From contig CAMDNQ010000007.1 of NCBI GenBank assembly GCA_945903265.1, positions 90,111 to 154,110 of the forward strand: 64,000 nt of DNA. The letters run 5' to 3'. The DNA comes from Candidatus Sulfopaludibacter sp. SbA3 (GTDB taxonomy: Bacteria > Acidobacteriota > Vicinamibacteria > Vicinamibacterales > UBA2999). Every line of letters begins with the position of its first letter. Positions within the stretch are counted from its first letter, which is position 1. Position numbers and translations under genes: made by a program. Positions 5,621 to 8,879 of this stretch are shown here, piece after piece. The notes under the pieces were generated by a model. It worked only from the letters and a program-made list of their open reading frames with translations. It was not told the DNA's origin and did not search any database.

Positions 5621-7327
5621 TTACGTCTGACCTTTGACTTCTGACCTTTGACTTGTCATCAGGCTCACCGCCAGGCCGACGATCACAACCACCACCGCGC
5701 CCACCACGTTGTGCCAGAGAAACGCGACGCTGGTATAGCTGGCAACCCACGCGACCGAGGCCATACCCGCGAGAAGACCGACGAACGCGCCGTTCCCATT
5801 TGCGCGCGGCACGCCAACCGCCAGTATGAAGACACCCAGAATCGACCCGTAGAAGAACGACCCGAACCGGTTCACGACCTCGATGAGCGAACCGAGCTCG
5901 GCGGCCCAGACCGCCACCGCGCAGGCGAAGAGTCCCCACGCCCCTGTCGCGAGTTTCGAGACATTCAGGTAGTGCGAGTCCGGCGCCACTGGCTTCACGC
6001 GCCGCCTGTAGAAATCAATGACCGTCGCGGTCGACAGCGAGTTCAGCTCGCCGGCGATCGTGTCGGTCGCCGCCATGATGATCGCGACGATGAGCAGCCC
6101 GATCAGCCCGATCGGCAGCTGCGTCAGGATGAACGTCGGAATGATGTAGTTCACGTCGGTGAACGCGCGCTGGTTCGAGGACTCGCGCGCCAGTGCCATG
6201 GCGTCGGCACGTACGGTTTCGAGCGCCGTGTTCCGTTGCCGGAACGCCTCCTGGGCAGCGGCAATCTCGACGGCATTGTCGGTGTCGCGCCAGGCCGCGA
6301 GCTCGGCGGCGGCGACGCGTCTCGCCTCGAACGCCGTGCCGAATTCGCGCTCGAGCACCGCATAGGCCGGGGCCGCGCCGCTGCCGCGGAGCCGCTCCTC
6401 TTCCGCCTCGCTGAAGAGCAGCGGCGGCGGATTGAACACATAGAACACGAAGACGATCACACCCAGGAGCAGCACCAGGACCTGGAGCGGAATCTTCCAG
6501 TAGGCGCTGACGAGCAGTGAGCGCCGCGCCTCGTTCACCGACCGGGCCGTGAGGTACCGCTGCACCTGGCTCTGATCGGTGCCGAAGTACGAACAGAACA
6601 GAAACACGGCGGCAATCGTGCCCGACCAGAAGGTGTACTGGTTGGTGAGGTCGAACGAGAAATCGAAGGTGCGCAGGCGTCCCGTCGAAGCCGCCACGCC
6701 GAGCGCATCGCCAAGCCCCACGCCCTCGGGAAGACCTGCGAGCGCCGCCACGATGATGGCGAACAGGCCGAAGACGACGAGGACCATGATCTTGACGTCG
6801 GTCCAGGTGACCGCCTGCACCCCGCCGAACATCGTGTACAGCACCGCCGGCGCGGTAATCGCCAGCGCGGTCGCCGTCACGTTCCAGTCCAGCACGAGTG
6901 AAAGCACGACCGCCGGAGCCGACACGACGGCGCCGACCGACATGCCGCGGGAGATCAGGAACAGGAAGCTCGTGAACGTCCGGGTCTTCGCGTCGAACCG
7001 CTTCTCCAGGTACTCGTACGCGGTGTAGACGCCCGACTTGTAGAAGAACGGCACCAGCGTGACCGAAAGAATGATCATCGCCACCGGCAGCCCGAAGTAG
7101 AACTGGATGAACCGCAGGCCGTCGTTGTAGCCCTGCCCCGTCGTCCCGATCATCGTGATGGCGCTCAGCTGCGTCGCCATCACCGAAATGCCGGCGGCCC
7201 ACCACGGAATACTCCGTTTCGCCAGGAGGTAGCCGTCGAGATCCTGGCTGTCTTTCGTGCGCTTCAGCCCGTCGTAGACGATCCAGGCGGTGAAGACGAC
7301 GAGGATGGTCCAGTCGACGGGATGCAT
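5621..7327 (-). CDS. Sodium:solute symporter (SSS family) with a hydrophilic insert
   Basis: 568 residues with many membrane helices. It belongs to the Na+/solute symporter family (Na+-coupled uptake of sugars, amino acids or carboxylates); the substrate is not predictable. The N-terminus HPVDWTILVVFTAWIV and the AGISVMATQLSAITMIGTTGQGY segment are typical, as is the conserved ATDTIAGELNSLSTATVIDFYRR region. Between helices, roughly residues 290-390, is a hydrophilic helix-rich insert of about 95 residues (ERLRGSG through MALARESSNQ). The last residues, SQRSEVKGQT and the stop, are encoded by seven-base repeats. The ATG directly abuts the stop of a 27-residue membrane peptide. Confidence 0.92.
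   Translation of the reverse strand: MHPVDWTILVVFTAWIVYDGLKRTKDSQDLDGYLLAKRSIPWWAAGISVMATQLSAITMIGTTGQGYNDGLRFIQFYFGLPVAMIILSVTLVPFFYKSGVYTAYEYLEKRFDAKTRTFTSFLFLISRGMSVGAVVSAPAVVLSLVLDWNVTATALAITAPAVLYTMFGGVQAVTWTDVKIMVLVVFGLFAIIVAALAGLPEGVGLGDALGVAASTGRLRTFDFSFDLTNQYTFWSGTIAAVFLFCSYFGTDQSQVQRYLTARSVNEARRSLLVSAYWKIPLQVLVLLLGVIVFVFYVFNPPPLLFSEAEEERLRGSGAAPAYAVLEREFGTAFEARRVAAAELAAWRDTDNAVEIAAAQEAFRQRNTALETVRADAMALARESSNQRAFTDVNYIIPTFILTQLPIGLIGLLIVAIIMAATDTIAGELNSLSTATVIDFYRRRVKPVAPDSHYLNVSKLATGAWGLFACAVAVWAAELGSLIEVVNRFGSFFYGSILGVFILAVGVPRANGNGAFVGLLAGMASVAWVASYTSVAFLWHNVVGAVVVVIVGLAVSLMTSQRSEVKGQT
5626..5653 (-). repeat. Seven-base repeats at the 3' end of the symporter gene
   Basis: Read on the plus strand: TCTGACC, TTTGACT, TCTGACC, TTTGACT, with a degraded copy further left (near 5594). 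They form the C-terminal codons of the symporter and the region just before its stop at 5621-5623. Most of the gap to icd is the same low-complexity material. Confidence 0.8.
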
Positions 7328-7411
7328 TTAGAGAAACGCGCCTTGAAGCAGCCAGAGGGCACCCAGCACGATTGCCTGGATGATCAGGACTCTGATGTAG
7401 CTCGCTCTCAC
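7328..7411 (-). CDS. 27-residue single-helix membrane peptide ahead of the symporter
   Basis: Starts GTG at 7411 and ends TAA at 7330-7328, immediately followed by the symporter ATG (TAAATG). The product VRASYIRVLIIQAIVLGALW plus LLQGAFL is a short basic head and one hydrophobic helix. It begins 10 bases after the stop of the argH-like gene. The only ribosome-binding candidate is a weak AGGC in that stop region. The exact abutment and clean helix suggest a real translated accessory peptide, coupled to the transporter. I do not recognise the family. Homologues of the sequence upstream of related symporters would confirm it. Confidence 0.55.
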   Translation of the reverse strand: MRASYIRVLIIQAIVLGALWLLQGAFL

Positions 7412-7421
7412 AGTGCTTGCC

Positions 7422-8879
7422 TCACAGTGCCTGCGCCTGTGCGTGAAGCTGCGATTGAGCGGTCGTGAGCTGGCGGGCGATCTCCGCCCGCCACCGCGTA
7501 TCCTCCGCGAGGAGGTGCGTCGAATCGGCGAGCGCCCGGGCGGTTTCGGCCGGCGCCGGCCCTCCGTGCGTGCGTCGCACGTCGACGAAGTGCCGCGGGC
7601 TCAGGATGCCGGCGATCTGCGCGTCCGTGTACTGCAGGGGCACGCCGAGGAGGTCGCCCGAAATGGTCGCAAGCGCGGCGCCGAGTGGCGCGCCGGGCCG
7701 ATCGCTATACGCCTTCAGCAGGCGGGCTGCGATCGTATGCGCCGTCTTGAACGGCACGCGATGCTCGCGGACCAGGTGATCGGCCAGTTCGGTCAGCGTC
7801 GTCCCGCCGGCAGCCGCGCGCGACTCGAGCCGCGCGACGTCGAACGAGGCGGCCCGCAACGCCGCGTCGACCAGCGTGACCGCTCGATGGGCGTCACGGA
7901 ACGTGGTGGCGACGAGCGGCTGAAGATCGTCTTCGGTGTCGACCACGTCGCCAAACGGCGTGTTGTGCACCGTCACCATTACCGCGCCCGCCTGGCCGAG
8001 CGCCTTGCTGGCAATGGCGCGGGCATGCTCGAGCGCAACAGGGTTGCGCTTCTGCGGCATGATGCTGCTCGCCTGCACGAAGCCATCGGCAAGCCGCAGG
8101 TACCCGAACTCCATCGTGCTCCACAGCAGGAGATCCTGGATGACGCGGCCGAGGCCGGCCAGCAGGACGGCGGCCGCCGACACACTCTCGAGCAGGTAAT
8201 CGACGGTGGCGATGCTGCCGTAGGTATTGCCGGTCGGCGCATCGAATCCGAGCAGGTGGCTTGTCAGCTGACGATCGATGGGAAATCCGGTCCCGGTAAT
8301 CGCGCATGCGCCGAGCGGGCATCGATTTGTCGAGGCGAACGCGGCCCGGAGCCGCGTCGCGTCGCGCTCGAGCTGTTCGATCACCGCCAGCAGGTAATGC
8401 GCGAGCGTGGACGGCTGGGCGGGCTGTGTATGCGTGAGGGCGGCGATCAGCGTCTCGCGATGCTGGCCGGCCTGTGCGATCAGGCCCTCGCGCAGGCTCA
8501 GCGTGGCGTCGAACAGCCCCAGGATGCACTCGCGCTGCCGGAGCCTGTACATCGTCATGTCGATGTCATTGCGGCTGCGCGCCGTGTGCAGCCGGCCCGC
8601 GACATCGTCGCCGCACGCCTGCTCGACCAGCTGCTCCACGTGGAAGAAGAGATCCTCACAGGCCTGGTGGCCGTACGGCGTCGCGCGGATCTTCGTGACG
8701 GAAATGGAGTCGAGCGCGCTCCGCAGCGCGTGCGCCTCGTCGCCCGTGACGATGCCGCGCTGGGCCAGCATCACGAGGTGGGCGTAGTGGATCGCCATCA
8801 GCGGCGCAAGGAACAGCGCCTTGGCGTCCTCGAAGTTGTCGGTGAGGACGTGGTCGATGTACTTCGGGTCGAACGTCAT
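7422..8879 (-). CDS. argH: Argininosuccinate lyase-like enzyme (aspartase/fumarase superfamily)
   Basis: 485 residues. The superfamily eliminates fumarate from succinyl substrates; argininosuccinate lyase, the last step of arginine synthesis, is the best fit. Visible signatures are HTARSRNDIDMTMYRLRQRE (the substrate Asn/Asp segment), ALTHTQPAQPSTLAHYL with the catalytic His region, and the lid SSIMPQKRNPVALEHARA. No other arg gene is in the window, so a related lyase specificity is possible. The ATG at 8879 overlaps the stop of the M61 peptidase (ATGA). An upstream extension to 8954 only runs through the peptidase coding region and was rejected. Confidence 0.82.
   Translation of the reverse strand: MTFDPKYIDHVLTDNFEDAKALFLAPLMAIHYAHLVMLAQRGIVTGDEAHALRSALDSISVTKIRATPYGHQACEDLFFHVEQLVEQACGDDVAGRLHTARSRNDIDMTMYRLRQRECILGLFDATLSLREGLIAQAGQHRETLIAALTHTQPAQPSTLAHYLLAVIEQLERDATRLRAAFASTNRCPLGACAITGTGFPIDRQLTSHLLGFDAPTGNTYGSIATVDYLLESVSAAAVLLAGLGRVIQDLLLWSTMEFGYLRLADGFVQASSIMPQKRNPVALEHARAIASKALGQAGAVMVTVHNTPFGDVVDTEDDLQPLVATTFRDAHRAVTLVDAALRAASFDVARLESRAAAGGTTLTELADHLVREHRVPFKTAHTIAARLLKAYSDRPGAPLGAALATISGDLLGVPLQYTDAQIAGILSPRHFVDVRRTHGGPAPAETARALADSTHLLAEDTRWRAEIARQLTTAQSQLHAQAQAL

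Follow-up and report, generated by a model that had tools for sequence, protein, structure and literature searches.

The window analysed here is a stretch of 64,000 nucleotides taken from an assembly of 3.52 Mb. The closest named relatives of the source organism are Acidobacteria, the nearest being a Luteitalea sp. (locus L033), whose symporter is 80% identical to that of the window. On the minus strand, an argH-like gene, ten bases, a very short ORF and a gene for a sodium:solute symporter (SSS) follow one another:

7422..8879, minus strand: argH-like argininosuccinate lyase gene, the upstream neighbour (TIGR00838, 306.3 bits for a cut-off of 279.5)
7420..7423, minus strand: GAGG, Shine-Dalgarno-like, 8 nt before the GTG of the peptide and overlapping the argH stop codon
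7328..7411, minus strand: one-helix membrane peptide of 27 residues, GTG start and TAA stop, belonging to a peptide family without annotation
5621..7327, minus strand: SSS/SLC5-type sodium:solute symporter of 568 aa (PF00474, TIGR00813), presumed partner of the peptide
6152..6436, minus strand: helical insert of the symporter, ~95 residues (~298-392), between two Pfam SSF matches

The 27 codons of the short ORF (minus strand, 7411 to 7328) encode MRASYIRVLIIQAIVLGALWLLQGAFL, a single hydrophobic helix whose N-terminal part contains two arginines. The GTG at 7411 is the only ATG, GTG or TTG of the frame able to start the peptide, and exactly 10 bases separate it from the TGA of the argH-like gene (7424-7422). 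The TAA stop (7330-7328) directly precedes the symporter ATG at 7327, forming a TAAATG junction with no gap. An earlier note on this DNA had pointed out the ORF, its distance from the argH-like gene and its abutment on the symporter, all of which are confirmed from the sequence. It had also taken the exact fit as an argument against chance, a weak one since the spacing in relatives runs from short overlaps to ~640 nt. Length and fit prove little here because the DNA is GC-rich, the frame stays open for 90 codons, reaching well into argH, and exact abutment is rare, being found in only 6 of 220 relatives.

The partner gene belongs to the SSS family, as both profile cut-offs are exceeded (PF00474, 128.9 bits for a cut-off of 22.8; TIGR00813, 228.4 bits for a cut-off of 184) and the predicted structure (pLDDT 79) displays the SSS fold. 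SSF is its sole Pfam domain. The model superposes on SiaT (PDB ID: 5nva) with a VIA-align Z-score of 39.7 and an rmsd of 3.0 over 466 residues, and by sequence the closest proteins of known structure are SiaT (5nv9), a multivitamin transporter, SMCT1 and NIS.

Relatives were collected by symporter searches of family, class and phylum samples supplemented by a contig search (31 loci), yielding 284 loci. The symporter was matched in 43/43 genomes of the family (E≤0.001, paralogues included), 171/193 of the class (E≤1e-60), 111/297 of the sample of the window's own phylum and 65/121 of the Gemmatimonadota sample (the phylum of L048). The 240 loci kept possess the symporter N-terminus, at least 150 nt of upstream sequence and non-identical junctions, the others being dropped before counting; 228 carry a symporter 38-100% identical to that of the window, and 12 carry paralogous SSS genes below 38%. 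In a Bacteroidota sample (the phylum of L056, Cyclobacteriaceae), 81/198 genomes hold the symporter at E≤1e-80, and the best 30 loci were examined. A control on the reverse strand performed poorly (by identity band, 4/4, 5/17, 17/115, 13/49, 3/26, 0/17 and 0/12) because the stretch extended into sequence antisense to neighbouring genes and to symporter helices; shuffled upstream sequences and the paralogues were therefore taken as controls instead. One alignment to which peptide-only rows had been added (A2) was discarded, its peptides being split between the N-terminus and the symporter columns.

Using 5-fold cross-validated profiles (at least 10 bits), a homologous one-helix peptide is found within 260 nt upstream of the symporter in 219 of the 228 loci, compared with 0/228 Markov-shuffled upstreams and 0/12 paralogous SSS loci. 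Hydrophobicity alone retrieves a one-helix small ORF, ending between -260 and +20 nt from the symporter start, in 210/228 loci, with 0/12 among the paralogues and a mean of 1.7/228 among shuffled upstreams. In the identity band of 75-101%, the raw hydrophobicity cut-off is passed by only two of four loci: the Luteitalea locus carries a peptide just under it (1.79 vs 1.9), and L035 keeps its peptide elsewhere in the genome. Several of the loci missed by the profiles do have a peptide, located ~640 nt upstream of the symporter in L079 and elsewhere in the genome in L035 and L116 (L066, of genome G096, and L035 are one and the same gene), while L283 has a divergent hydrophobic ORF overlapping the symporter by ATGA. 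L258, L266 (G136) and L183 (G194) are further copies of the symporter in genomes where another copy has the peptide; these copies, devoid of an adjacent peptide, are more distant in sequence. For L251 and L268, no peptide was found when their genomes (G403 and G579) were searched with the peptide profile A4, a profile that favours peptides of the kind found in Gemmatimonadota and in the order to which the window belongs.

The family spans three phyla, Acidobacteriota, Gemmatimonadota and Bacteroidota, and accompanies the symporter in hundreds of bacteria. Among the Bacteroidota, 27/30 loci pass the hydrophobicity cut-off; the ORF of L296 proved spurious on inspection, leaving an adjacent peptide in 26/30. 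Peptide stops fall between 30 nt before and 4 nt inside the symporter start in 173 of 220 cases, with overlaps of 4 nt in 38/220 and of 1 nt in 15/220. As the spacing varies, what is conserved is the protein and not the gap. Substitutions point the same way. Over 81 independent pairs, in which no locus recurs and the 24 codons preceding the stop were compared (DNA 62-97% identical), the peptide frame exhibits pS 0.405 and pN 0.161, hence a pN/pS of 0.40 and a dN/dS of 0.31, compared with pN/pS of 1.13 and 1.75 for the other two frames of the same alignments. Purifying selection acts on the core of the peptide. The earlier note had called for a comparison of synonymous changes, which indeed shows the bias, and had held that stops or frameshifts in close relatives sharing the gene order would speak against the peptide; the relatives keep both frame and helix.

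Across the 162 genomes of the window's order, the peptide is matched in 139/142 genomes with the symporter vs 2/20 without it (Fisher p 7e-19, a value that ignores shared ancestry). In G110 and G188, a peptide is seen directly upstream of the symporter (L151 and L083) despite the lack of a search match, and in G104, the third symporter genome without a match, the symporter seems to be split in two. Conversely, in G077 the symporter is cut off by the end of the contig, and in G024 (L318, G024:C371, about 1492-1764) an intact peptide precedes a symporter remnant whose start is joined to a C-terminal fragment; here the symporter has apparently been deleted recently, leaving the peptide behind.

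Six genomes keep the peptide at a distance from the symporter (~15 kb, ~150 kb or on a separate contig). In G096, the peptide still follows argH, and the symporter is on a different contig; in G181, the two are ~150 kb apart; in the Bacteroidota G605, G679, G633 and G617, the peptide (E≤2.5e-20) is found ~15 kb upstream of the symporter on the same strand. Two of these four separated Bacteroidota loci (L335 and L336) were inspected, and no SSS gene follows the peptide in either. Six genomes of the Bacteroidota sample lack the symporter: five gave no peptide match, and one gave a weak match (E 0.002) containing a stop. As the peptide survives separation from the symporter, it is not merely a cis leader. 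A different arrangement is observed in G131, where two matches occur on contigs C15 and C27 (L320 and L321; E 4.7e-5 and 0.0028), with the symporter on C27; this genome possibly holds two copies of the peptide.

The region of the helical insert is 72-106 residues long in all 227 aligned relatives at least 38% identical to the window's symporter and 83-95 residues long in 30/30 Bacteroidota symporters, vs only 6-17 residues in the 12 paralogues, which are devoid of the peptide. Peptide and insert go together, as far as sampled, a match that counts as one correlation and not many, the symporters presumably forming one clade. AlphaFold models of fused read-through proteins (window and L033) returned the symporter fold with the peptide as a helix of low confidence (pLDDT ~57-63 in the window and ~43-55 in L033) and did not resolve a docking site. 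Most of the insert region, with AF2 pLDDT values of ~87-96, is among the most confidently modelled parts of the fused model. Mean-field direct coupling analysis (mfDCA) of 204 peptide-symporter pairs gave scattered top pairs, at a Meff of 131 for 598 columns and in a run without a null.

Conservation proves that the ORF is not a product of chance. On the strength of this conservation, the dN/dS of 0.31, the co-occurrence and the retention of the peptide when unlinked, as well as the precedents of CbrX on CbrA and MAP17 on SGLT2, we consider it to be a real gene whose product is probably a single-pass accessory subunit of the adjoining SSS symporter. The earlier note's proposal of an accessory peptide is thereby supported, frame and helix being conserved and the peptide tracking the symporter; binding between the two is inferred.

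Other readings have been considered. The peptide might be regulatory, inhibiting the symporter or steering it towards or away from proteolysis in the manner of MgtS, MgtR, MgtU and SgrT, and not a standing subunit. Small proteins of ~30 residues controlling transporters exist (review PMC10710835), and the window peptide fits them in length and hydrophobicity; the position of its gene directly before the transporter in most genomes, however, is more in keeping with a constant partner than with a conditional switch, and we regard such a role as unlikely. Rather improbable is a leader ORF whose translation, by coupling, opens up or feeds the start of the symporter and whose product is irrelevant. 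This was the conclusion drawn in 2019 for CbrX and cbrA: CbrA expression was held to require the translation of CbrX but not its particular peptide sequence, and it was still supported by a frame-restored CbrX with another sequence (PMC6591292). The tight junctions, with 173/220 stops close to or just inside the symporter start, would suit such a leader, but selection acts on the amino-acid sequence, the spacing reaches ~640 nt and six genomes keep the peptide far from the symporter. We give very little credit to the idea that the membrane peptide has a separate function, linked for example to argH, and hitch-hikes beside the symporter: in G096 the peptide did stay behind argH after the symporter had left, but argH lies within 1.5 kb upstream in only 75/190 loci and is thus no constant companion, and the peptide is absent from 18/20 genomes of the order without the symporter. 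Finally, an intergenic ORF arisen by chance, for which the frequency of open frames in GC-rich DNA and the 90 open codons could be invoked, is refuted by the homologues, the synonymous bias and the co-occurrence, and has practically no probability left.

As an accessory subunit, the peptide could act as follows. Ribosomes would translate argH, peptide and symporter in succession, as the GAGG over the argH stop and the TAAATG junction suggest, so that peptide and transporter would be made together. The peptide would insert as one helix, its N-terminus inside, an orientation judged only from the two N-terminal arginines. It may then pack on the lipid-facing surface of the transporter, predicted to have 13 helices, probably near the ~90-residue helical insert, and may help its folding, stability or oligomerisation. 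A broader and more doubtful proposal, which we put forward tentatively, is that such one-helix subunits are an obligate part of the whole SSS subfamily, packed beneath the insert and replacing a peripheral helix of larger SLC5 carriers. If so, the "symporter plus single helix" arrangement known from SGLT2-MAP17 arose independently in bacteria.

Gene finders often drop ORFs as short as this one, and a subfamily present in hundreds of genomes may thus be described, expressed and modelled with one subunit missing. Should heterologous expression of such carriers fail, the missing peptide would be one simple explanation to consider. The symporter copies without a peptide of their own raise the possibility that one peptide serves several carriers. 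The pair offers a bacterial system in which the role of a single-helix auxiliary subunit in an SLC5-fold carrier could be studied, a question that also arises for MAP17 and CbrX.

Profile searches assign the peptide to no known family. Neither the window peptide nor 15 other typed members reach the curated cut-off of any Pfam or NCBIfam family, and the same holds in Pfam for the 33 members of A4. Weak matches of single members, for example to DUF131 (E 0.0058), TIGR00304 (0.0062), CCSMST1 (0.0075), SoxE_N (0.002) and DUF2474 (0.0065), unrelated families, were rejected as hydrophobic noise; the weak Pfam and NCBIfam matches are below the cut-offs wherever these are shown. No one-helix subunit of a bacterial SSS protein was found described in the open-access literature, outside which most subscription papers lie; catalogues of small proteins could list such ORFs without naming them.

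Four known systems invite comparison. In that of DUF485 (YjcH-ActP), a small membrane protein is likewise encoded before the SSS gene of an ActP-like acetate permease, a gene whose start DUF485 ORFs overlap by ATGA. DUF485 proteins, however, have ~90 aa and two hydrophobic stretches, whereas the window peptide has 27 aa, one helix and no family. PF04341 (DUF485) matched neither the window peptide nor any of the 33 members of A4, while the ORF of L324, the positive control, scored 96.5 bits. This locus (G000:C4:168602-169801) belongs to the same genome as the window and displays an SSS gene, which we take to be ActP-like from its DUF485 partner, preceded by a two-helix DUF485 ORF with an ATGA overlap. 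The two remaining SSS genes of the genome (L325 and L326) have no such small ORF at their starts.

Small subunits of the TIGR03647 and DUF3311 types have two helices. Their genes, too, adjoin an SSS gene, as documented for TIGR03647/TIGR03648 and DUF3311-MctP (PMC6429828 and PMC9100948). The window's symporter differs from TIGR03648, scoring 73.1 bits for a cut-off of 320.75, and TIGR03647/DUF4212, DUF3311 and DUF997 are not among the matches up to E 10 of 8 + 8 members of the peptide family.

CbrX of Pseudomonas, in structural terms the nearest precedent, has been observed by cryo-EM bound to the SLC5 domain of CbrA, beneath a helical periplasmic loop, and is dispensable for growth on histidine (PMC13022988), which counts against the subunit reading. 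The likeness lies in a small ORF upstream of an SLC5-type gene, and the TAAATG of the window would permit coupling. The two pairs are nonetheless set apart by description, CbrX being a two-helix hairpin of 58 aa whose partner is a sensor kinase (SLC5-STAC), whereas the window peptide has 27 aa and one helix and its partner is SSF-only.

MAP17 (PDZK1IP1), in shape the closest precedent, resembles the window peptide in being a single helix and an auxiliary subunit of an SSS-fold sodium symporter, human SGLT2. It differs in being eukaryotic and in residing on TM13 of SGLT2, which presumably lies beyond residue ~552, the point up to which the model of the window's symporter superposes on SGLT2. 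A search of the PDB, which includes SGLT-MAP17 complexes, with the profile A4 gave no match at E≤10, and sequence homology to MAP17 was thus not detected. According to PMC10803289, MAP17 probably assists in folding, localisation or stability. Two-helix small subunits of SSS proteins are already known, and the one-helix peptide is most likely a counterpart of DUF485 and CbrX and an analogue of MAP17.
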